From positions 1 through 46,999 of the forward strand of contig JAAZOD010000034.1 in assembly GCA_012797975.1 (NCBI GenBank): a DNA stretch of 46,999 bases, read 5' to 3'. The notes under the pieces were generated by a model that was given only the letters and a program-made list of their open reading frames with translations, was not told the DNA's origin and searched no databases. A program made the position numbers and the translations under genes. Of this stretch, positions 1,255 through 13,522 are shown one piece after another. Positions within the stretch are counted from its first letter, which is position 1, and every line of letters starts with the position of its first letter. The DNA is from Pelolinea sp. (GTDB lineage Bacteria > Chloroflexota > Anaerolineae > Anaerolineales > Anaerolineaceae).

Positions 1255-2070
1255 ATGAACTCTCCCCAATCCCTCCAGCGCATTCAAACGTTGATCGCCG
1301 ACTTTCAAGGCGATGGCGATGTGTTTGCCGAAATGCTGCGCAACGAAGATCTCCCCCATCTCAGCTTCAGCCAGATCAGCACATTGGAATTCTGCCCCTA
1401 CCGTTATTATTTGCAGTATGTTCTCTACCAGCAGCCGGAACCCCTGCCCGATTATTTCACCAAAGGCAAACTGCTGCACCAGTGCCTTGCCCGCTATTAT
1501 CAAGCACAGAAAGACGGGATCAACATAGAGCTGATCGACTTTAAAGAAGAAATCGTTGCCTTATCCAATCCCGCTTTTCACACCCATCTCTTGAATGCGC
1601 TGCAGGTACATTCGCAGAACCGCTGGCAAAATTGCGAGATCGTGGCCATCGAGCATCCTTTCGTCTTTTCGATCTCTGCAGGCCTGCCTCCGATGGTGGG
1701 CATCATCGACCTGATCCTGCGCAATGGGGAAACTATCCTGCTGGTGGACCATAAAACAGGCAGGAACTTTTATGAGGATGATGAACTGCAGGTGGCCATC
1801 TATTCGCGCTATATCATGGAAAGATATGGCATCGATCAATGCCGCTTGTTCTACGACCACTACCGCTGGGTGGAAAACCTGGAGCGCATTCGCAAACCCG
1901 CCTTCCAGCGCAAAGAGGTGAGCACCCTGCCTGCAAGCTGGTCAAGCTATTTGGAGCGCATCCAACTCGCTGCTGAAAAGATCGAAAAAATCCAGGCAGG
2001 CACAATCCTTCCATCCAGTCCTTCCTGTTTTCGCTGCCCGTATCGCCACAATTGCGACCGCGGTCATTAA
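1255..2070 (+). CDS. Cas4/RecB-like PD-(D/E)XK nuclease with probable Fe-S cluster
   Basis: A 271-residue protein with the PD-(D/E)XK nuclease core: GIID (Asp about 151), then LVDHKTGR (Asp165, Lys167), and a downstream Q-x3-Y motif (QVAIYSRY) as in RecB, AddB and Cas4. Four cysteines are placed as in the Fe-S nucleases: one near the N-terminus in EFCPYRY (Cys47) and three at the C-terminus in CFRCPYRHNC (258, 261, 267). It should therefore be a metal-dependent DNA exonuclease or endonuclease with a 4Fe-4S brace. The start ATG lies 18 bases after the tRNA, with AAGGA just upstream. No cas genes or CRISPR repeats are nearby, so it is a solitary family member. The exact substrate is unknown; a repair role is plausible. 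Confidence 0.75.
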   Translation: MNSPQSLQRIQTLIADFQGDGDVFAEMLRNEDLPHLSFSQISTLEFCPYRYYLQYVLYQQPEPLPDYFTKGKLLHQCLARYYQAQKDGINIELIDFKEEIVALSNPAFHTHLLNALQVHSQNRWQNCEIVAIEHPFVFSISAGLPPMVGIIDLILRNGETILLVDHKTGRNFYEDDELQVAIYSRYIMERYGIDQCRLFYDHYRWVENLERIRKPAFQRKEVSTLPASWSSYLERIQLAAEKIEKIQAGTILPSSPSCFRCPYRHNCDRGH

Positions 2071-2397: not shown

Positions 2398-4830
2398 TCA
2401 GCGGGAGATTTCCTTCACCAGTAAGAAATACATTTTTCCATCTTTTTGTTCCTGATTTTCCAGCACCCATCCCTTTTTCACCCCTTTGGGTATCAAGAAC
2501 ATGAGCTCCTTCACACACTCCGGACAGGGGATTTCTTTTTCCATCCCATATTCCTTCAAAATGAATTCATCGTTGATCAGATTCGAGAATGGGATGCGCT
2601 TCTGCGGCTCCAGCTCGCGAATTTTCTGTTTTATCGGCTCTATCTTGGGATTGGAGATGCGCCCCTTCCCTCCACATTTCGGACAAGAGGGATTTTTATA
2701 GGTTAGAGTACATTGGAGCTGCCCATTGCGGATTTCTCTTTTGGGAAGATCGAGCGGAGGCAATTGCAGTACCAAGCGCTGCGCTTCGCGCCCAAATTCC
2801 TGCAGCTTTGCTTTGGGACGCTTTAGGTTTTCATAATCCAGGCCGATGGCAAACTTCCAGATGTTCTCATTGAGATAATCTTCTGCAAAGGGGCCGTAGT
2901 CAGGCCTTAGCTCTTCTTTTATCCGGTCGCGCATGGAACAGGCCAGCGCATAAACCGCTTTTCGCTCGGTCAAGATGTCTTGTGCCAGATTCAATTTCTT
3001 GATCACTTCATTGATCAAAACCTCATCTTTTTTCAACACCAGCCCCTTTTTGGACTGGAATTCCTCCATGAGATCGGTGATGCGGTCGATGATCTCGACC
3101 GGTGATGCTCTCACCTTCAGGTCCAGCGCTTCATACAGATATCCGCCATTGAGGTCAAAAAGCAATTGTTCTAATTTTTCCGGCAGGGCTTGTTTTTCCG
3201 GCAGGGTTTGCGAAAGGATCTTCAGCACATCATCCCGTGAAGACAATGCCAGTTCATTTTGCGGATCAAGATCGAGTGCGCGGGTGAAATTCCGCAAGGC
3301 GTTTTTATAATCGCCGGCCTTCCTGGATGAAAATCCGTCTTGGGCCAATTTTTTGCTGTACTGCTGGCTGATCTCTTTTTGCCAGGACCGCACCCAGTTA
3401 TATTCCGGGTTCAGGCGCAGCGCATTTTCAATATCGGTCAGCGCTTCGTCATATCTTCCCAATAGTCCGTACATCTTTCCCCGATATGAAAGCGCCCAGC
3501 CGCTGTGCGGATCCAGAGCCACTGCGCGTTCGAAATCTTCCAGTGCTTTCAGATAATCTCCCAGCAAATAATAAACTTCTCCGCGATATGCGATCGTCCA
3601 GGCATCGTTCGTGTCTTTTTCAATGGCATAGTTCAGGTCAGCCATTGCCTGTTCGTAATTCTTCAGGTAACGCTGGACCACCCCGCGGCGCGAGATGGTC
3701 CAGGGTTTACGATTATCCAGCTCGGCCGCCCGGTTCAGGTCCTGCAGCGCTTCGGCATATTTTTCGATGATGCGGTAGGTTTCGCCGCGCCGCGAGAGTG
3801 CCCAGGCATAATCGGGATCCAGTTTGATGGCCTGGTCAAAATCTTGCAGTGCCTGAGGATACTGACCCTTCTGGCGATAGGCCTCCCCGCGACAGGCATA
3901 GATCCAGGGGTCCGACGCATCCAGTTGGAGGGCACGGTTGAAATCCAGGATCGCTTTGTCATACTCGTTGTGCATGCGGTAACTATCTCCGCGCTGAATG
4001 ATCGCCCAGGTATAGCTGGGGCTTAAGGAAATGGCGTGATCAAAATCGGAAAATGCGCCCGGGTAATCATTGAGATTGCGATGCACCAGTCCCCGGTTGG
4101 CCAATGCCCAACTGCTGGAAGCGTTGATCGTGATCGCCTTATCCAAATCATCCAACGCTTCTTTGTTCCTGCCCGTTTGAAGATAAGCCACACCGCGCGC
4201 GGTAAGCGTTAGCGCACGGTTGATGGAATTCAGCGCTTTTTCATACCGTTCAAGATGGTGGAAGGTCAGGCCCTGGTTCACCACTGTTCTCACATTCTGT
4301 TCATCCAACACCAGCGCCCGGTTCAGATCGCTCAATGCTTGAGGGTATAGATTTTGTTCAAGATATACTCGACCGCGTGTTAAATACGCCCAGGCATTTT
4401 CCTCTTCAATTTTCAACGCCTCATCCAGATGTATCCGGGCTTCCAGATATTTCTTTTGCGCGCGCAAGATCTCCCCCAAACGGGTCATCGCCCAGGCATT
4501 CCCTGGATTGATGGCAATCGCACGTTCCAGGTCGATGATCGCCTTGGGGTAATCGTTATTGATCCGATAGGTTTCCCCTCGGCTTGCCAAGGCCCAATCA
4601 TCTCTGCCATCCAGCTCCAGTGCACGCTCGAAATCCGCGAAAGCATTTGTGTACCGATTGATGTTGCAATATGACTCCCCCCTGCGCGCATACACCCAGG
4701 AATTCTCAGGATCCAATTGGAGCGCTTCTGTGAAAATCGTGATTGCCAGATCATACTTCTCTTCCAACCGGTACCGTTCACCCTGTTGAATGAGATTATC
4801 CAATTCGCCCTGTCCCAATGCTTTATCCAT
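2398..4830 (-). CDS. TPR protein with degenerate J-like domain and DnaJ-like zinc motif
   Basis: An 810-residue protein. Residues about 11-535 hold roughly fifteen tetratricopeptide repeats, most starting with a W-A-x4-R-G-E-x-Y pattern; the seventh repeat is shortened. Residues about 562-630 follow the outline of a J-domain: YLYEALDLKVRASPVEI, then an amphipathic helix, then VIKKLNLAQDILTERKAVYAL. The HPD tripeptide that activates Hsp70 is absent; QSK occupies that place. The C-terminus has CPKCGGKGRI (Cys716, 719) and later CPEC (769, 772), which resembles half of a DnaJ zinc centre (CxxCxGxG). Between stop and start, 36 bases separate it from the upstream Hsp70-like gene, so it is probably co-transcribed. 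I infer a substrate-binding co-chaperone for that Hsp70. The J assignment rests on pattern matching by eye. Confidence 0.8.
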   Translation of the reverse strand: MDKALGQGELDNLIQQGERYRLEEKYDLAITIFTEALQLDPENSWVYARRGESYCNINRYTNAFADFERALELDGRDDWALASRGETYRINNDYPKAIIDLERAIAINPGNAWAMTRLGEILRAQKKYLEARIHLDEALKIEEENAWAYLTRGRVYLEQNLYPQALSDLNRALVLDEQNVRTVVNQGLTFHHLERYEKALNSINRALTLTARGVAYLQTGRNKEALDDLDKAITINASSSWALANRGLVHRNLNDYPGAFSDFDHAISLSPSYTWAIIQRGDSYRMHNEYDKAILDFNRALQLDASDPWIYACRGEAYRQKGQYPQALQDFDQAIKLDPDYAWALSRRGETYRIIEKYAEALQDLNRAAELDNRKPWTISRRGVVQRYLKNYEQAMADLNYAIEKDTNDAWTIAYRGEVYYLLGDYLKALEDFERAVALDPHSGWALSYRGKMYGLLGRYDEALTDIENALRLNPEYNWVRSWQKEISQQYSKKLAQDGFSSRKAGDYKNALRNFTRALDLDPQNELALSSRDDVLKILSQTLPEKQALPEKLEQLLFDLNGGYLYEALDLKVRASPVEIIDRITDLMEEFQSKKGLVLKKDEVLINEVIKKLNLAQDILTERKAVYALACSMRDRIKEELRPDYGPFAEDYLNENIWKFAIGLDYENLKRPKAKLQEFGREAQRLVLQLPPLDLPKREIRNGQLQCTLTYKNPSCPKCGGKGRISNPKIEPIKQKIRELEPQKRIPFSNLINDEFILKEYGMEKEIPCPECVKELMFLIPKGVKKGWVLENQEQKDGKMYFLLVKEISR

Positions 4831-4866: not shown

Positions 4867-6990
4867 TTATAGGTATTTATTTTCTTCGCCGATCAATTTT
4901 TCCGTTTCCATGAAAGCGATCAATTCAGTGCAGCGATTGGCAAGCTGCTGATATAAACGTTCTTCGACCGGCCCTTCTTGCGGGATAGTTTTCATGGCGC
5001 TTTCCAAAGCCACGATTTTCGTTTCCAGTTCCTTTTTCAACCTGCCATTTGCCTGGACAGTCGCGTTCTGCCGCAAAGCATATTGCGCCTGTTTGACGGC
5101 ACTGAGAGCCGCTTGACGTTTGGATGAGACCGCCTCGGGACGGACGTATTGCATTTTCGGCCCTTCCTGAATGGGAAAACCGGAAGTTTGAGATGGGATG
5201 GGCGCCGCATCGACGCGGGGGAAGGAAAGCGGCTTGGGGATCTTCTTGCCGATCAATGTGCTTAACCGTTTCAACTGCAATGCGTCCCCGCTGATCAAAT
5301 CCCTGATTTCCAGACTGATGGTCTTGTCGGAATCCGCCTGCAATTGTGGCAAAAATCTTTTTTCTTCACGCGGATTGGTGGCTGCCACGAATTTATAGTC
5401 GCCCATCTGCGTGAACAGTTCCCCCTCGGGTTCCACCGCGCATTTATACAAACCGATCGTTATTTCCGATCCAGGCGGACCTTTGACGATGATCTCACCC
5501 GTAAAGGAGGCATCGCAGGGTACCACATCTCCGTCATGGATCAAAATCTCCCCTTGTGATCCCACCAAAAAACCGTAATCAAATGGAATGCGTTTGATGG
5601 TCGGATCCGGCCCGGCATGGTTGGCATACAAAGCCGCTCCGCGCGCCACCGCCTCCATCGGGTTCACCGGAAAATCGTTGGCATCGATTTCATCCAGTTC
5701 CCTGCGCACACTCGGGTTATCTCGAAAAACATCCCAAATCACTTTTCGCACGCACGGCATGTGCATGGGGCCGCCCACCAGCAGAATATGCTGGATATCC
5801 CTGCTGTCCAACCCGCTTTTTTGCAATGCAAATTTCACTTGTTTTTTAAATGAATCGAGGAGAGGTTGCAGCACTTCTTCCAGAATGATCCAATTCTTGT
5901 CATTATCCAGACAATCCTTGCGGGTACGAGCCATTTTCAAAAGAATCGTTTTGCCCTGATAGGTAATGTATCCGCGGGTGGCAGGCACCTGCGAAAGCTC
6001 GATCTTTGCCTGTTCCAGCCAAAGACGCAGTTTGTAGAAATCCGCCCAGCGCTCCCTGTCAAGGGTTGCCTTTCCATTGCTGAGAGATTCCATGTTGCCC
6101 AGGTCGTTCAGCAGGTCTTTCACTTCTTTGGGCACATCGCCAGCTCCAAGAATCTCACTGAAATCATCCGATAAGAACCGTCTGGTCGATTGCGCCAACA
6201 GTGGTTTGAAATCGTCAAAGCCAAAGGTTTCCACCGTGCGCATGAGCAGAAGATCATCCATATCGATGCCGCCCAGAGCAACATCGCCGCGTGCCGGTTT
6301 GGCTTCCACGATCACCGGCTTTCCTGAGCCGCCGGTCTTCAACAGCACCACCACGATATCCAACGTCCCTGCCCCCCAATCGATCGCCATGATGAAATTG
6401 GGGGTGGAGGTGTTCAACTGCAATCCGTAGGCGATGGCAGCCGCCACCGGCTCAGCAATCAATTCTACTTCTTCAAAACCTGCCCGCATGGCAGCTTCCT
6501 TGGTCTGTTCGATTTGCGAAGCATCAAAATAGGCAGGATGGGTGATCACCGCTTTGCTGACCTGCCCGGTGATCAACGGATTGAACGTTTCCGCGCTGTT
6601 CTTGATCCACTTTAAGACTTGCGTTGAAATTTGGGCCGGACTGAACTTTTTGTTCCCAACATTGATCACCACATTCCCATCCGTCCCACATTCCAAAGAG
6701 TAGGCGAAGCGTTTCACTTCTTTCTCGATCTGCCGGTAGGAACGTCCGATCAGGCGTTTGATCCCCCATACCACCAGGTCCGGATTGATCGCCATTTGCG
6801 CGCGAGCTTCCTCGCCAAAGGCAATGGCATTGCCGGAATTGTCAAACCGCACGAAGGACGGAAACACCTGGCCTTGCGGGGTTGGCCCGTACTGGCTTTT
6901 TATAATGGAAATATGTTGCGCATCTCCGGCAAACGCAGCACAGGAATTATAGGTTCCCAGATCGATACCAATCGCCAGCTTATTGCTCAT
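4867..6990 (-). CDS. Divergent Hsp70 (DnaK-like) chaperone
   Basis: A 707-residue actin-fold ATPase. It has phosphate-1 GIDLGTYNS (8-16, Tyr in place of the usual second Thr), the EPVAAAIAYG loop, phosphate-2 IDWGAGTLD (203-211), adenosine motif LLVGGPMHMPCV (403-414) and NPMEAVARGAALYA. The nucleotide-binding domain ends near 455. The usual hydrophobic linker and DVTPLSLG start of the DnaK substrate domain are missing. Instead there is a short beta-rich stretch (about 465-580), a Pro/Ser-rich linker and a helical end (about 620-705). I chose the ATG at 6990 because GGAGAG stands six bases upstream. It overlaps the stop of the GrpE-like gene by 11 bases, so the two are translationally coupled. 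It probably has a specialised client set and does not replace the main DnaK. Confidence 0.85.
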   Translation of the reverse strand: MSNKLAIGIDLGTYNSCAAFAGDAQHISIIKSQYGPTPQGQVFPSFVRFDNSGNAIAFGEEARAQMAINPDLVVWGIKRLIGRSYRQIEKEVKRFAYSLECGTDGNVVINVGNKKFSPAQISTQVLKWIKNSAETFNPLITGQVSKAVITHPAYFDASQIEQTKEAAMRAGFEEVELIAEPVAAAIAYGLQLNTSTPNFIMAIDWGAGTLDIVVVLLKTGGSGKPVIVEAKPARGDVALGGIDMDDLLLMRTVETFGFDDFKPLLAQSTRRFLSDDFSEILGAGDVPKEVKDLLNDLGNMESLSNGKATLDRERWADFYKLRLWLEQAKIELSQVPATRGYITYQGKTILLKMARTRKDCLDNDKNWIILEEVLQPLLDSFKKQVKFALQKSGLDSRDIQHILLVGGPMHMPCVRKVIWDVFRDNPSVRRELDEIDANDFPVNPMEAVARGAALYANHAGPDPTIKRIPFDYGFLVGSQGEILIHDGDVVPCDASFTGEIIVKGPPGSEITIGLYKCAVEPEGELFTQMGDYKFVAATNPREEKRFLPQLQADSDKTISLEIRDLISGDALQLKRLSTLIGKKIPKPLSFPRVDAAPIPSQTSGFPIQEGPKMQYVRPEAVSSKRQAALSAVKQAQYALRQNATVQANGRLKKELETKIVALESAMKTIPQEGPVEERLYQQLANRCTELIAFMETEKLIGEENKYL

Positions 6991-7804
6991 CTTGCTCTCC
7001 ATCAGAAAGTTTTTTCCTCTTTTCCCCTATTCTCTTCATCCAATTCCGGACCATTTCAATCAGATTTTTTCTTGTTCTTTCTTGAGAAGAAGAGGTTATC
7101 TTATTTTCGGAATCATTCTCTTCTTTCACTTCTTCCGTTTTATGTTGCGGCTCTTCGAAGGCCTCCATCGGAATCTCCTGTCCGGGTCCTGAAGCGTTTT
7201 TTTTCGAAAATTCTTCACTTTCTCCTTGAATGGATCTCTGCCCCGGCTCCGGATTTTCAGAACTTTCCTTTTCCACCTCGACGACCGGAACCGCTTTGGA
7301 AACGATCACCTGCGGACGGCGCAGGATAATGCTGCCCTGCCAGACATACCCGGCGATCTTCACCTCCAGGATAAAATCAGGCGGGTAATCGTTGGTTTCC
7401 ACAACATCTTTCGGATCGCATCCTTCCGGCATCGGCTTGCCGATTTCCGGTTCCCAGCGCTTCACATCCTGTTTTTTAAGCAGGGCTAGAATTTGTTCTT
7501 GAACGACCGCAATCTCATTGGATTTGGGGTCCAAACTATCACAGTAATCCAATAAATGGATAAGGTTCATAAGAACAGCAGCTTGCTGCTGGCTCACCTG
7601 ATTGAACGCTTCCAAAGTCCGCGTTAAATAGGTGCGCAGATGGACGCTCTCGTCTTGCGCATTGCGGAGATTCTCATCCATTGCCGTGGCACTCTGGAAA
7701 AGGGATTTCCAATCGGCTGCGTCGGTCAAATAAGAACTTTCTTCAGCAGGATCCGTTCGCTGGGTAAAAAATGGAAGCTTGATTTTTTTCAATAAAGCGC
7801 ACAT
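6980..7804 (-). CDS. GrpE-like nucleotide exchange factor with long charged tail
   Basis: A 274-residue protein. Residues about 113-172 match the GrpE beta domain: PPDFILEVKIAGYVWQGSII followed by LRRPQVIVSK (family pattern G-Y-x3-G-x-hydrophobic-R-P-A-x-V-x-V). The region before it (about 30-112) is helical, like the GrpE dimer stalk but shorter. Unlike normal GrpE it continues for another 100 residues of Glu/Ser/Lys-rich, low-complexity sequence. GGAGG stands just before the ATG. It overlaps the downstream Hsp70-like gene. By family knowledge GrpE releases ADP from Hsp70; here it presumably serves the divergent Hsp70. Domain identity is fairly clear; the function of the tail is unknown. Confidence 0.8.
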   Translation of the reverse strand: MCALLKKIKLPFFTQRTDPAEESSYLTDAADWKSLFQSATAMDENLRNAQDESVHLRTYLTRTLEAFNQVSQQQAAVLMNLIHLLDYCDSLDPKSNEIAVVQEQILALLKKQDVKRWEPEIGKPMPEGCDPKDVVETNDYPPDFILEVKIAGYVWQGSIILRRPQVIVSKAVPVVEVEKESSENPEPGQRSIQGESEEFSKKNASGPGQEIPMEAFEEPQHKTEEVKEENDSENKITSSSQERTRKNLIEMVRNWMKRIGEKRKKLSDGEQDEQ

Positions 7805-7844: not shown

Positions 7845-9956
7845 TCATCTTTCCTCAGATGAAAGCTTGAACCCCATACTGCGCGGTTTCAACTTTTTTT
7901 GAGTGCTTTTTACATCTTCAATGGCCTGGCTGAAATGCTGCATGCCAACCACAATACCTTTCTCCGCGAAATCCTTTTCACGCAGTGCCAGCAGCGCAGC
8001 CAAACGGCATACTTCCGCAATATCAGCGCCCGAGAAATCATCCGCAGCGCGCGCCAGCTCGGGAAGGTTCACCGTTTTATCCAGTGGAATACGAGCAGTA
8101 TGTACCTTGAAGATCGCTTCACGTGTGCCGGCATCGGGCAGCGGTATGTACACCTGCAGGTCAAAACGCCCCGGGCGCAGCAAGGCAGGGTCAAGCAGAT
8201 CGGCCGCATTGGTGGCAGCGATCACAAAAACGTTTTCCAACGTCTCGATCCCATCCATTTCGGTCAATAGTTGATTGACCAGACTATCAGAGATGCCGCT
8301 CACGTCACGCCCGCGCACAGCACCCAATGCATCGATCTCATCAAAGAAAATGATGGCCGGTGCCACCTCGCGCGCTTTGGCAAAGATGAAGCGTATCTTT
8401 TCTTCCGATTCTCCATACCATTTGGAACGCAGTTCCGGACCGCGCACCGCAATGAAATTCGCCCCGCATTGATTGGCGGCCGCTTTTGCCAGCAATGTCT
8501 TTCCTGTTCCCGGAGGGCCGTAGAGCAAAAGCCCCTTGGCCGGTCGGATGCCGGCGGCTTTATAAGCATCCGCTTTCTGGATACCAAAAACGATGCTCTC
8601 GATAATAATGCGCTTGACCTCTTCCAAACCCCCAACCTGGTCCCAACTAATGTTGGGTGAAACCTGCACCATCACTTCCCGCATGGCCGAGGGTTTGACT
8701 ACATTCAACGCAGTTTGAAAATCCTGCGCAGTGATCGTCAATCCATCCACGCTCACTTCCCCTTCTTCCAGCTTCTCCTCCGGCACAGCGTTGCGCAGCG
8801 CAGTGTAACCGGCTTCACGGCACAGAGCAGCCATATCAGCCCCTACAAACCCGACCGTTTTTTCTGCAAGATATGGAAGATCGACATCTTCTGCCAGGGG
8901 CATGCGCCGGGTATGGATCTCCAGGATCTGTTTTCTGCCTGCCCTATCCGGAACGCCGATATGGATCTCATGTTCAAACCTGCCAGGGCGCCGCAGCGCA
9001 GAATCAATGGAATTGACCCGGTTGGTAGTGCCGATCACCACCACACCTTTCAGTTCGGTAAGGCCATCCATGAGGGTCAGCAGGGTGGCAACCAGTCGCC
9101 GCTCCACCTCGCCCTTCGATTCATCACGCTTGGGAGCCAGAGCATCCAATTCATCGATCGTGATGATAGCAGGCGCATTCGCGCGCGCATCGTTGAAGAT
9201 ATCGCGTAGGTGTTTTTCGCTTTCCCCGTACAACGCACTCACGATCTCAGGACCTTGAATGGAATAGAACTTTGCACCCACCTCATTGCTCAGCGCTTTG
9301 GCGATCAATGTTTTTCCAGTCCCAGGAGGACCATACAGGATGACCCCGCGCGGCGCTTCAATCCCCAATTGCGCAAACGTTTCGGGGGAACGTAACGGGA
9401 ATTCGACCAACTCACGGATGCGCCGTATCTCACGCGATAGACCGCCGATATCCCGATAGGTCACTCCCGTGGCTTGCGGAGCAGTTTCCGAGCGACTTTC
9501 AATTTTGATGGCGGTCGTTTCCCCTACGAATACGACCCCGGCCGGTTCTGTTTTGAGGACTTCCACATTCACGATTGACCCGCTCAATGTGAAAACGGGT
9601 ATTTGTTGAGACTCTGAAACCACCCGTTCGTTCAGAAAGACTTTCAACAAATGCTCGCCTTCCGAACCCGACCAGGTGGAAGGCACACGCACCGAAATGC
9701 TTTTTGCCAGTGGAAATTCTTTTTTCTCGACAGAAACGGTTTTGCCGGGGCGCACTTTCAGGTGCAGCCGCAAGTATTTATCCACCAGGACGACCTCATC
9801 TCCCCCTACGATGGAATCAACAATGGCGCCACAACGGTTTTTTTCATAACCTAGAAGGACAGACGCATGATCGTTTTGGAAACTCCCAGCGCTGGTTTTC
9901 AGGATGACTTTCCCTGTTCCCTCCAGTTCAATCGCCTCTTCGATTATCATTTCCAT
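7845..9956 (-). CDS. Cdc48/VCP-like double AAA+ ATPase
   Basis: A 703-residue protein with an N-terminal region of about 165 residues resembling the Cdc48/VAT N domain, followed by two complete AAA+ modules. D1 has Walker A GPPGTGKT (209-216), Walker B IITIDELDA (264-272) and RRPGRF arginine fingers. D2 has Walker A at 480-487, Walker B IIFFDEIDA (535-543), pore residues KWYGESE and LLRPGRF. The family forms hexamers that extract and unfold proteins with ATP. It is the first gene of the minus-strand block; GGAGGG lies about ten bases before the ATG. Forty bases separate it from the GrpE-like gene. Its location suggests that it passes unfolded or aggregated clients to the neighbouring Hsp70 set. 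Similar proteins occur in archaea and some bacteria. Confidence 0.92.
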   Translation of the reverse strand: MEMIIEEAIELEGTGKVILKTSAGSFQNDHASVLLGYEKNRCGAIVDSIVGGDEVVLVDKYLRLHLKVRPGKTVSVEKKEFPLAKSISVRVPSTWSGSEGEHLLKVFLNERVVSESQQIPVFTLSGSIVNVEVLKTEPAGVVFVGETTAIKIESRSETAPQATGVTYRDIGGLSREIRRIRELVEFPLRSPETFAQLGIEAPRGVILYGPPGTGKTLIAKALSNEVGAKFYSIQGPEIVSALYGESEKHLRDIFNDARANAPAIITIDELDALAPKRDESKGEVERRLVATLLTLMDGLTELKGVVVIGTTNRVNSIDSALRRPGRFEHEIHIGVPDRAGRKQILEIHTRRMPLAEDVDLPYLAEKTVGFVGADMAALCREAGYTALRNAVPEEKLEEGEVSVDGLTITAQDFQTALNVVKPSAMREVMVQVSPNISWDQVGGLEEVKRIIIESIVFGIQKADAYKAAGIRPAKGLLLYGPPGTGKTLLAKAAANQCGANFIAVRGPELRSKWYGESEEKIRFIFAKAREVAPAIIFFDEIDALGAVRGRDVSGISDSLVNQLLTEMDGIETLENVFVIAATNAADLLDPALLRPGRFDLQVYIPLPDAGTREAIFKVHTARIPLDKTVNLPELARAADDFSGADIAEVCRLAALLALREKDFAEKGIVVGMQHFSQAIEDVKSTQKKLKPRSMGFKLSSEER

Positions 9957-10178
9957 GATTGATTGCCCTCCACATTTTACGAAAGTGCTGAATTGGGAAC
10001 AGCATTTTGGTTGCTGGTTCTTTCCTCTGCAGCAAATTCATACGCAGAATCACGAAAAAAGAATCTAGAAAATTAATTCATTATACTTCAGTCTTTTTTG
10101 AATAATCATTTCTGGAAGTTTTTTATTGGATTACAATAGAGTGAATTCAACGAATAGTGCAATAAATTGAGGAGCGCC
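9957..10178. promoter_or_regulatory. Divergent control region of the chaperone block and the 10.2-kb gene
   Basis: A noncoding stretch of 222 bases between two divergent genes. On the minus strand a perfect TATAAT lies at 10085-10080, giving a leader of about 120 bases for the Cdc48-like gene; its -35 is poor. On the plus strand TACAAT at 10132-10137 is a possible -10 for the next gene. I looked for a CIRCE (HrcA) inverted repeat of the TTAGCACTC type and saw none, so heat control of this chaperone block by HrcA is not supported. Confidence 0.4.
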
Positions 10179-10760
10179 ATGCCGAAGAAGAAGACGACCT
10201 GGAAAACGTTTGAGACCGACCATCTTTCCATTAACTTGCCGGATACGTTCATCGGCGGCCAACCTTCGCGCGATCGAAAAGAGCTGCAAGCCGAAGTTCT
10301 GGAACTGCCCATGGAGATCCGCAATGTTTTCAAAAATCTCTTCGCACAGCGCAACTTTGTTTTTCTGGCTGCCGATTGTGATTTCACCAATGAAATGAAC
10401 TCCTTGACCTGCCTGGTGGTGCTGCCTGAGCCCATTCCTCTCATTCAAATCAAATCCAATATCGAAGGGTATGTTCGCTCGGTGAAAAAGAACCTCGGGC
10501 GCGATTTCGAATGTGTTGAAGAGAGTTATTTCGATTATCATGGGCTGCCTGTTGCCCGCCTGCTCTCTGCACAGCACGCCCCCAAAACGCGCAAGAACCC
10601 CGAACCGGCCATTACCCGTAAACATCTGATGTATACCTACCGTTTGCGCAAGCATTATTGGGCTTTTGATTTCATCGCTGACGCTTCCGTTTTCGATAAG
10701 TTCCAACCGATCTTTGAAGAAAGCATCAAGAGTCTGGTTTTCAAAGAGAAAGCAAAATAA
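10179..10760 (+). CDS. Unrecognised soluble protein (193 aa)
   Basis: A protein with no signal peptide and no membrane segment. It starts MPKKKTTWKTFETDHLSINLPDTF and has mixed alpha/beta character. The early SINLPDTF-plus-GGQP pattern and overall size recall Mog1/PsbP- or LpqN-type folds, but I cannot name a family. I chose the ATG at 10179 because TGAGGAG precedes it by about five bases; an in-frame TTG at 10167 is less likely. It is divergent from the chaperone block. A long open frame on the opposite strand (10131-10778) lacks a convincing start and protein-like composition. Function unknown. Confidence 0.7.
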   Translation: MPKKKTTWKTFETDHLSINLPDTFIGGQPSRDRKELQAEVLELPMEIRNVFKNLFAQRNFVFLAADCDFTNEMNSLTCLVVLPEPIPLIQIKSNIEGYVRSVKKNLGRDFECVEESYFDYHGLPVARLLSAQHAPKTRKNPEPAITRKHLMYTYRLRKHYWAFDFIADASVFDKFQPIFEESIKSLVFKEKAK

Positions 10761-11164: not shown

Positions 11165-13033
11165 ATGGTTAATAAAAAAAACAGTCAAACTATTATTAAT
11201 ATTTTCTTCGTCTTTCTAATTATTATTTTCCTTTCCTTTTCACTAAAAATCATCCCCACATTTCCTTATTCGATTTCTCGCATTTTTATGGAAAAATCAT
11301 TTCTTACTTTTTTAGTTATCTTACTATGTTCAGTTTTCATAACAAAGGTATTAAAGAACGATTTTGCAATGTTTTTCTTTTTATTAGTTTTGTTTTCGAT
11401 GCCACTGTCTTTCATGTGGAATTCCGGGACAACAAATCAAGCAATCATCGGGGGATTGATTCCTCACCGCGATAGTATGTATTATTACTTGAATGCAAGA
11501 AGTCTGAATGATGGTTTTAAATTCAGTGCTGCCTTACCTGGTAGACCAATCTATCCTGCTTTTTTATCATTAATCTTTTCTCTCACAGGAACCAGTATTC
11601 CAATTTCATTGTTCATTCAAATGGTGATCATCGTAATTTCTGTCTTTTTCTTTTTGAAAGAATTGAAAAATAATCAATTTAATTATTCGATCCCTCTCTT
11701 TTTATTAGGTATTTTTTATTTCGTCAGGAATTATTGCTATTCATTCATGACAGAAGACTTGGGAATCGCGATTGCATTATTATGTATTGTCGCTATTCTT
11801 TCTGGGGTAAGGAAAGAATCTCCCCTTTTTCTATATATAGGTTTCTTTTTTCTCTCATTGTCACAAAACATTCGCCCAAATACATTACTTGTTATTCCCT
11901 TGGTAGGTTTATGGTTTTTTATGTATATAAAAAAGAAAAAATTTGATCTTTCAATGGTCTTGGTAATATTAATGCTAATTTCTGGTTTTTTAATAAACTC
12001 TTATTTCCAATCTACTTTCTCTGTTCCAGGGACCCAAATGTTCTCCTCCTTTGCTCATGGATTTTATGGGCAAACAAAAGGGGGAGCTGGTTGGACACAA
12101 ATATTCAAGGATTTTCCCGGAATAACAGATTCAACAGAAATTATGGCATTAGCTGTCAAGAATATATTTCGCAATCCGATTGGGATCGTTTTAGGTATCT
12201 TAAAATCATATCGAGATTTTTTCCTACCTTCGGATATTTGGGCTTTCGTTTATATAACAAATCCAGTTCATACAATCGGAAATTATTTACCCTGGTTTCT
12301 TATAACTCTATTTTCTATTTTAGGAATATATCAAATATACAATTCCAGAAAAAGTAAATTTTATTCCCTCTTTCTCTTCATATTCATAGGGATATTCTTA
12401 TCAATCCCATTTGCGGTTCCGAGAGATTCCGGATACATGAGGACTTACGCGACAATACACCCCTTCCTTCTTTTCTTCCCCCTCATTGGAATAGAGTACC
12501 TCGTTTCAAGGTATATTTCACCCCAACATCCTCATTCCAATTTTGAAGGAAAAGGATCTTCTGTAACTTTTCTGATTTTTTCAATATTAATCACCTCGCT
12601 TCTTCTAGTAGCAGTACCAATAAACTTTCATCTTAGTAATCATAGCCCTACCAAGAATGAAATGGTTTGCAGCTCCACAGAAAAATCTGTTGCTTTTGAA
12701 ATTACAGAAGGATCCTATTTTATGCTCATTGGGGATGAAAAAAATTGTGGTTTTATTCCTAATTTATGCATTGACCAATTTTTGAAAAATGGAATGCAAA
12801 AAAACCATACTTTATTTGATCTTACAAAATCGGAAATTCATCCGAACGATGATTATCTATTTACAGTAGCAAATGATTTGATTACAAATGATAATCTGTA
12901 TATGTTTATTCCTCTTGATACGAATAACTCAGATAAGAACTTTTTAGGCTTATATTATGGTTGCGCAAGGATTGTTAATAAAGATGAATTCTTCTATGTT
13001 TTAGAGAAATTCCAACAGACAACCTCTTACTAG
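11165..13033 (+). CDS. Polytopic membrane protein, probable GT-C type glycosyltransferase
   Basis: A 622-residue protein with about eleven hydrophobic segments in the first 470 residues and a soluble C-terminal region of about 130 residues (after about 490). In the first large outer loop, PHRDSMYYYLNARSLNDG followed by GRPIYPAFLSLIF fits GT-C transferases (ArnT/PMT/GT39-like), whose first loop carries an Asp needed for catalysis and which use lipid-phosphate sugar donors. A GGGGA ribosome-binding site precedes the ATG. The gene is strongly AT-rich, unlike the flanking housekeeping genes, and stands alone. It may modify surface polysaccharide or protein. Family placement is by topology and the acidic loop motif only. 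Confidence 0.6.
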   Translation: MVNKKNSQTIINIFFVFLIIIFLSFSLKIIPTFPYSISRIFMEKSFLTFLVILLCSVFITKVLKNDFAMFFFLLVLFSMPLSFMWNSGTTNQAIIGGLIPHRDSMYYYLNARSLNDGFKFSAALPGRPIYPAFLSLIFSLTGTSIPISLFIQMVIIVISVFFFLKELKNNQFNYSIPLFLLGIFYFVRNYCYSFMTEDLGIAIALLCIVAILSGVRKESPLFLYIGFFFLSLSQNIRPNTLLVIPLVGLWFFMYIKKKKFDLSMVLVILMLISGFLINSYFQSTFSVPGTQMFSSFAHGFYGQTKGGAGWTQIFKDFPGITDSTEIMALAVKNIFRNPIGIVLGILKSYRDFFLPSDIWAFVYITNPVHTIGNYLPWFLITLFSILGIYQIYNSRKSKFYSLFLFIFIGIFLSIPFAVPRDSGYMRTYATIHPFLLFFPLIGIEYLVSRYISPQHPHSNFEGKGSSVTFLIFSILITSLLLVAVPINFHLSNHSPTKNEMVCSSTEKSVAFEITEGSYFMLIGDEKNCGFIPNLCIDQFLKNGMQKNHTLFDLTKSEIHPNDDYLFTVANDLITNDNLYMFIPLDTNNSDKNFLGLYYGCARIVNKDEFFYVLEKFQQTTSY

Positions 13034-13522
13034 TAAACGAAATGCTTTTCTTTACAATAATCTCAATTCATGATTTTTACACCCTATTCTCACAACAGGA
13101 GAATACTCCATATCTAGGTTTCTGAATTGAGCACTGTCCAGACTTAATTTATCCACATCCCTAGAAAATGTCCCTTGATCTCCAGAATCACTTAAAGTGC
13201 ATAATCGGAAAGAATTATCACAAAATCGTCTTCGTGGAGCATTCTTTTGCTTGCCAGCGCGCGCTGGATGCTTACAGTAGAATAAAAAAATAGATAGGAA
13301 TTTTATAGCGATTATCTTAGTACGGCCTCCTTTTCCTGTCTAGGTTATAAGCAAATGTATTTTGGGCAAACTCAATCGTCCTGCATCATCATTTTCAGTC
13401 CAAACACCGCAATTGAGGTCAGTAGATTATTATGAGATTAAACTGACTTATAGATTGTCGACAGACAGGGATTATACATCAGACAGCTTCACCTCGCACA
13501 ACATATCACACATCTATCCTTA
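13034..13522. other. Noncoding stretch with a 14-bp palindrome
   Basis: About 490 bases with no open frame that I can support on either strand. The only clear element is the perfect palindrome CCAGCGCGCGCTGG at 13254-13267, a GC-rich spot in AT-rich DNA. There is no T-tract beside it, so it is not an evident terminator; it could be a protein-binding site. The rest may be decayed DNA from an earlier insertion. Confidence 0.45.

Follow-up and report, generated by a model that had tools for sequence, protein, structure and literature searches.

Can a J protein and its Hsp70 remain partners once the HPD motif has gone, or does the J fold then survive only as a tether? This question is raised by a gene found in a 46,999-nucleotide stretch of DNA from Pelolinea sp. 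(Chloroflexota, Anaerolineaceae; GenBank assembly GCA_012797975.1, contig JAAZOD010000034.1, positions 1 to 46,999 of the forward strand), hereafter called the window. The gene (2398..4830) is an intact open reading frame (ORF) encoding an 810-residue co-chaperone candidate, named here TPR-J*-Zn after its tetratricopeptide repeats (TPR), a J-like domain without HPD (J*) and a zinc module (Zn). It occupies the final position in a four-gene operon on the minus strand, which is the strand of all operon coordinates given below, and it follows the genes for a CDC48-type AAA+ ATPase, a GrpE-like protein and a diverged Hsp70, in that order. We consider it reasonably probable that these four genes constitute a dedicated chaperone machine, in which the J-derived domain docks on its own Hsp70 and the canonical HPD switch has been lost on both sides.

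Contact residues lost on both sides

Structural work has placed D35 of the HPD motif in contact with R167 and Q378 of DnaK, and H33 in contact with L391 of the DnaK linker (PMC8215388, PMC13012618; the papers cited here by PubMed Central, PMC, number are drawn on in excerpt). The R_NBD arginine, which is R167 in DnaK, was 100% conserved in the 2,884 Hsp70s of one survey, and R-to-D mutants of DnaK and Ssq1 showed a raised basal ATPase activity and a poor stimulation by the J protein (PMC7289447). In addition, the DnaJ mutation D35N suppresses DnaK R167A (PMC13012618).

As the first-pass annotation had described, the ORF encodes a TPR array (residues ~10-530; 3241..4803; Pfam TPR_1 7.3e-93, 15 TPR_1 stretches) followed by elements of the J outline, namely YLYEALDL from residue 564, then ASPVEI and VIKKLNLAQDIL, with no HPD among them. 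The J-like domain, delimited by a J profile, HH comparison and an AlphaFold2 (AF2) model, covers residues 564-634 (2929..3141). In the profile alignment obtained with hhalign, EEFQSKKG stands opposite KYHPDKN, and therefore the HPD is replaced by QSK (residues 592-594; 3049..3057). Helix II continues through QSK in the AF2 model, and compared with the local J protein L001 the segment before helix III has four additional residues. The orthologue L012, encoded by the Chloroflexi metagenome-assembled genome (MAG) S1bins96 (gene at 12080-13261 of its locus, plus strand), also lacks HPD, its interhelix loop being shortened to REYPALDEM. Thus, HPD is missing from both proteins in which the region can be read, with replacements that differ from each other and are non-conservative in both, whereas in a third genome, the MAG UBA4781, the J region is unreadable because the contig stops 85 residues into the frame of the TPR gene. 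The net charge of helix II is -4 in the window protein and +1 in L012, and lies between +1 and +5 in 30 of 30 canonical domains.

On the side of the partner, the operon Hsp70 (711 residues; 4867..7002) is a member of the Hsp70 family (PF00012, 214 bits) with the ATPase residues present, and the catalytic positions K70, E171, D194, T199 and D201 are retained in all three operon Hsp70s known, those of the window, S1bins96 and UBA4781. The contact positions are not. DnaK R167 aligns, with no gap nearby, to E180 of the window protein (codon at 6463..6465), and this column is occupied by Glu in the three operon Hsp70s and by Arg in all 15 DnaK loci from ten genomes. The same 15 DnaKs carry Gln at Q378 and Asp at the linker position, where the operon Hsp70s have Tyr, Phe, Phe and Lys, Lys, Pro, respectively; the whole LLLD segment of the interdomain linker reads PTIK, PTLK and PPIP. 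These counts come from an alignment of the loci L045-L073 that left out L060, which holds only the C-terminal part of a DnaK, and L072, in which no frame passed the filter; loci that duplicate a protein (L061/L067, L062/L068, L063, L064 and L070) did not add to the counts. The possibility of a changed Hsp70 partner surface, raised in the first-pass annotation, is therefore strongly supported.

Where E206, D208 and E209 stand in DnaK, the operon Hsp70s carry Leu-Lys-Thr, Leu-Lys-Thr and Met-Arg-Glu, as compared with acidic-Gly-acidic in the 15 local DnaKs. This comparison is fair only at columns 206 and 209, since the local DnaKs have Gly208 and a shorter loop; both columns are acidic in 15 of 15 local DnaKs and are Leu and Thr in the window Hsp70. 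The loss of the acidic patch relative to E. coli DnaK (E206, D208, E209, D211) is thus partly a difference between lineages. Among the Hsp70s outside the operon, Arg is found at the R167 column in two proteins of genome G026 and in the diverged L065, Ser in the diverged Hsp70-like L066, and Tyr, Tyr and Phe in three shorter matches that look like MreB.

Origin of the J-like domain

The window stretch is assigned as J-derived because its orthologue scores as a J domain. L012, which has YYEVLGV near its N-terminus and carries GEYYEVLGVAKDTGSKDIL from residue 19, reaches 16.0 bits on a profile built from 30 J domains of Chloroflexota genomes, the best of 2,000 shuffles reaching 6.9. When the window and L012 sequences were joined in a two-row alignment, its comparison with the J profile gave an HH probability of 90 and a score of 36.2, which none of 150 column shuffles attained (best 21.7); L012 alone gave 88.6 and supplies most of the signal of the pair. 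When the two-row J*-Zn profile was run in the reverse direction against 350 phylum genomes, it matched the genome of the window and a single further protein, which is a normal HPD-bearing J protein; the per-genome E of 4e-4 of this match corresponds to about 0.14 expected by chance over the 350 genomes.

The AF2 model of residues 550-639, built from the two-row alignment that included L012 (predicted local distance difference test, pLDDT, 83.0; predicted TM score, pTM, 0.65), shows helices at 565-568, 577-594, 600-622 and 625-638 in the J order, preceded by another one at 551-561. In a Foldseek search with this model, J domains took ranks 1-4 and 6-8, among them 6rzy (TM 0.64 by target, root-mean-square deviation 2.7), and the J domain bound to DnaK in 5nro came at rank 15. 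Hence, a fold other than J, the outcome that would have spoken against the first-pass annotation, was not what the prediction returned, although the E-values are weak. A longer model of residues 550-810 was of low quality beyond the J-like region (mean pLDDT 59.8), and its Foldseek search, in which J domains came 9th and 33rd among the 50 matches listed (E 1.4 and 2.9), was uninformative.

Several results weigh against this assignment. No J domain (PF00226) is listed for the window protein in Pfam at E up to 10, a range in which most matches with E greater than about 0.1 are removed by the filters of HMMER. Its J region reaches 2.2 bits on the J profile, a score also attained by 76 of 2,000 shuffles and, when the region itself was shuffled, by 16 of 400, and its HH probability, when compared without L012, is 1.85. 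The best Foldseek E of the model is 1.0, which is weak, and in VIA-align the DnaJ-like 2ys8 (Z 6.5) is tied with unrelated helical chains. Moreover, L012 is the only second protein that covers the region, in which the two are 17% identical. The J-like domain of the first-pass annotation therefore stands as J-derived by way of L012 and the pair alignment, and does not stand on the window sequence by itself, which is not above chance.

Accordingly, an unrelated helical bundle in the window protein, with J descent for L012 only, has to be weighed here. It would explain the chance-level score and the HH probability of the window sequence, the low identity, and a J-like model obtained from an alignment that contained L012. 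However, the stretch lies at the same place as in the orthologue, at the same operon position and with a homologous zinc module behind it, and the model has the helix order of J domains, which Foldseek ranks first. We regard the helical bundle as very improbable, and residues 564-634 as very probably a J-derived domain.

Operon, orthologues and distribution

Within the operon, 40 nt lie between the first and second genes, the second and third overlap by 23 nt, and 36 nt separate the third from the fourth. The first gene (7845..9956) encodes a CDC48/VAT-type double AAA+ ATPase of 703 residues with two AAA modules in Pfam, whose 760 bits on TIGR01243 lie under the family cut-off of 802.65; no model scores above TIGR01243 among the matches listed (25 of 86 NCBIfam rows). 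The GrpE-like protein (274 residues; 6980..7804) obtains 25.0 bits against a cut-off of 25.8 for Pfam GrpE (PF01025), and its orthologues obtain 37.3 and 29.1 bits. A scan for promoters and terminators gave counts within one standard deviation of those of shuffles.

In S1bins96 the CDC48, GrpE-like and Hsp70 genes follow one another in the order of the window, the Hsp70s being 43% identical, and are followed by the J*-Zn gene of L012. This agrees with the proposal of the first-pass annotation that a J-derived domain without HPD has kept its place beside an Hsp70. UBA4781, an Anaerolineaceae MAG of the same genus as the host, keeps the CDC48-GrpE-Hsp70 order up to the contig end that cuts the TPR gene. 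The zinc modules of the window protein and L012 match with E 5e-12 (two-sequence BLASTP). L012 gave no TPR match and has at its C-terminus one strong hydrophobic segment (residues 333-360 at a 19-residue hydropathy of >=1.6, peak mean 2.39). This replacement of the TPRs by a hydrophobic segment suggests that the J*-Zn module is probably membrane-anchored in S1bins96.

The zinc module itself had been read as half of a DnaJ zinc centre. The DnaJ zinc domain has four CxxCxGxG repeats. The window protein resembles the zinc domain of class A DnaJ in having one CxxCxGxG, with C716 and C719 (CPKCGGKG; 2674..2685), plus one CxxC, with C769 and C772 (CPEC; 2515..2526). Nevertheless, no Pfam DnaJ zinc domain is listed for it, and L012 retains all four cysteines without the CxxCxGxG motif (CARCGGTH instead), so that the half-DnaJ reading was rejected.

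Searches with the operon Hsp70 matched 1 of 400 genomes of the phylum at E 1e-60, 2 of 147 of the family at 1e-110, 2 of 396 of the class at 1e-90 and 1 of 150 relatives of the S1bins96 genome (G651). These samples overlap, and the distinct genomes with the operon are three in total. A CDC48-type ATPase was found in three of eight genomes tested, exactly the three that hold the operon. The operon genes appear to travel together across genomes; among 14 control genomes the CDC48 model matched four, all of them archaea. No relative of the C-terminal 280 residues of TPR-J*-Zn was found in collections of genome contigs, plasmids or phages, nor beyond the own genome among 61 genomes; a weak match in G080 (E 0.0078, 63 residues) was the sole one besides the own genome among 400 genomes. 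Likewise, L012 had no match in phages or plasmids, and the operon Hsp70 profile had none in viral contigs. The host genome (35 contigs) also encodes two canonical J proteins with HPD and one canonical DnaK, the J genes being on a different contig (C12).

Three further loci deserve mention. A 197-residue ORF (10167-10760, plus strand) diverges from the CDC48 gene and has no NCBIfam match and only one sub-threshold Pfam match; a similar frame adjoins the UBA4781 operon (L008, 1-557, minus strand), and the ORF may belong to the operon system. On the opposite strand beside the operon, at 1255-2070 (plus), lies a PD-(D/E)XK or Cas4-like nuclease (PF12705, 1.9e-22; Cas4 model below cut-off). Genome G026, of the same family, has a different chaperone cluster (L009:6580-19088, minus strand) with a protein-kinase-like frame, two TPR-rich proteins, GrpE (71.7 bits) and an Hsp70-TPR fusion, and its Hsp70 with a zinc-ribbon-like insertion retains the R167 arginine. 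A 151-residue frame of this cluster (12029-12484) has no Pfam match and scores 7.4 bits on the J profile, a value reached by none of 2,000 shuffles (best 6.9); it may represent a further J relic that lacks HPD.

Discussion

Since both the HPD and the matching contact of the Hsp70 have been lost, the pair probably operates with an altered switch or with none. We hypothesize that the J-derived domain would dock on the operon Hsp70 mainly as a tether and specificity element, that the TPRs (or the membrane segment of L012) together with the zinc module would select clients or location or anchor the machine, and that the GrpE-like protein would exchange nucleotide on the Hsp70, whose client would be handed over to the CDC48-type ATPase and unfolded by it. 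With the HPD relay lost on both sides, the ATPase of the Hsp70 might be partly de-repressed by the acidic residue at R167, as in the engineered R-to-D mutants; alternatively, ATP hydrolysis might be triggered through other contacts.

A more specific version of this mechanism is an inverted contact, in which Lys594, at the D35 column, would face Glu180 of the Hsp70 and constitute a re-wired switch independent of HPD; the acidic helix II of the window protein may in that case face the Hsp70 patch of Leu206 and Thr209 with Lys208 between them. The S1bins96 operon stands against it, as its Hsp70 has the Glu at R167 and L012 has no Lys at the matching site and a canonical helix II charge, and we consider the inverted contact unlikely. 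A general charge swap was also considered and, as helix II is acidic in the window protein and +1 in L012, is retained only within this inverted-contact reading.

Two observations count against a co-evolved partnership as such. The diverged L066, which lies outside the operon, varies at R167, and therefore the loss of this arginine need not mean co-evolution; and L012 departs from the window protein in the canonical charge of its helix II, just as its Hsp70 departs from that of the window in being acidic at column E209. A rival explanation, with which the Ser of L066 is also consistent, is that the J-like domain is a structural spacer or relic beside a J-independent Hsp70, the loss of contacts on the two sides being decay. 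The differing replacements of HPD, QSK within a longer stretch in one protein and a shortened loop in the other, would also fit with decay. Even so, the domain has been kept beside the Hsp70 in both lineages although the remainder of the protein is different (TPRs in one, a hydrophobic segment in the other), and the R167 column has not drifted but is Glu in all three operon Hsp70s. For these reasons a mere spacer or relic seems to us rather unlikely. The domain might instead be a regulator in the manner of Pam16, pairing with a canonical HPD-bearing J domain and tuning the canonical DnaK system. There is a precedent in Pam16 itself, which has DKE or DKS for HPD and pairs with Pam18 (PMC13254874), and the host does possess canonical J proteins and a DnaK. 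Yet the canonical J genes are on another contig, while TPR-J*-Zn stands with its own Hsp70, GrpE-like and CDC48-type genes, and that Hsp70 is without the HPD receptor. Such a regulator is quite improbable, and the dedicated machine with a changed or missing switch remains our preferred explanation.

Previous studies offer systems with which the operon can be compared. The closeness of the genes for a diverged Hsp70 and dedicated J proteins with an altered HPD (HPE) is known from DjlB/DjlC-HscC of E. coli, and DjlB and DjlC are tail-anchored, as L012 may likewise be with its single C-terminal hydrophobic segment (PMC13254874, PMC8215388). However, HPE is a conservative change and the HPD of the operon domain is fully lost; HscC is without GrpE contacts, whereas the operon includes a GrpE-like gene; and CDC48, present in the operon, is not mentioned together with HscC in the excerpts of PMC13254874 and PMC8215388 used here. 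In Pam16/Tim16 and the type IV (pseudo) J proteins the HPD is replaced non-conservatively, as in the operon (PMC13254874), but Pam16 has as its partner the canonical J protein Pam18, whose Hsp70 is Ssc1, while the operon partner is an Hsp70 without the R167 contact. In its general composition, with an Hsp70 that keeps its catalytic residues, a J protein, a nucleotide exchange factor and an AAA+ unfoldase, the operon resembles DnaK-DnaJ-GrpE with ClpB. It differs in having lost HPD, R167, Q378 and the linker Asp, and in having an AAA+ protein of the CDC48/VAT type and not ClpB.

J proteins without HPD are already known, among them Pam16, DnaJB13 and the Plasmodium type IV proteins, and J proteins with HPE serve HscC; whether deviations from HPD are accidental or selected was called enigmatic in a 2026 review (PMC13254874). 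What appears to be new is the combination of a J protein without HPD and a dedicated Hsp70 from which the receptor is missing as well. We consider it new because, among the matches listed in the open-licence PMC literature on degenerate or bacterial pseudo-J proteins, or on CDC48-GrpE-Hsp70 operons, no paper appeared to concern the system. A survey (PMC11019930) reports that additional canonical copies of DnaK are most frequent in Chloroflexi, but a term search of its text found no mention of HPD or R167.

The HPD and the receptor arginine have been regarded as the invariable core of the J-Hsp70 pairing, and the operon has lost both while keeping the residues of catalysis, a GrpE-like protein and an AAA+ ATPase. 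If the inverted contact were true, it would be a natural mirror image of the Asp-Arg contact between J proteins and Hsp70s, coupled to a CDC48-type unfoldase. A second lead is the association, in a bacterium, of an Hsp70 with an ATPase of the CDC48 type. The operon is thus a natural case in which to test whether a J protein and an Hsp70 can still work together when HPD is lacking, or whether only a tether is left of the J fold.

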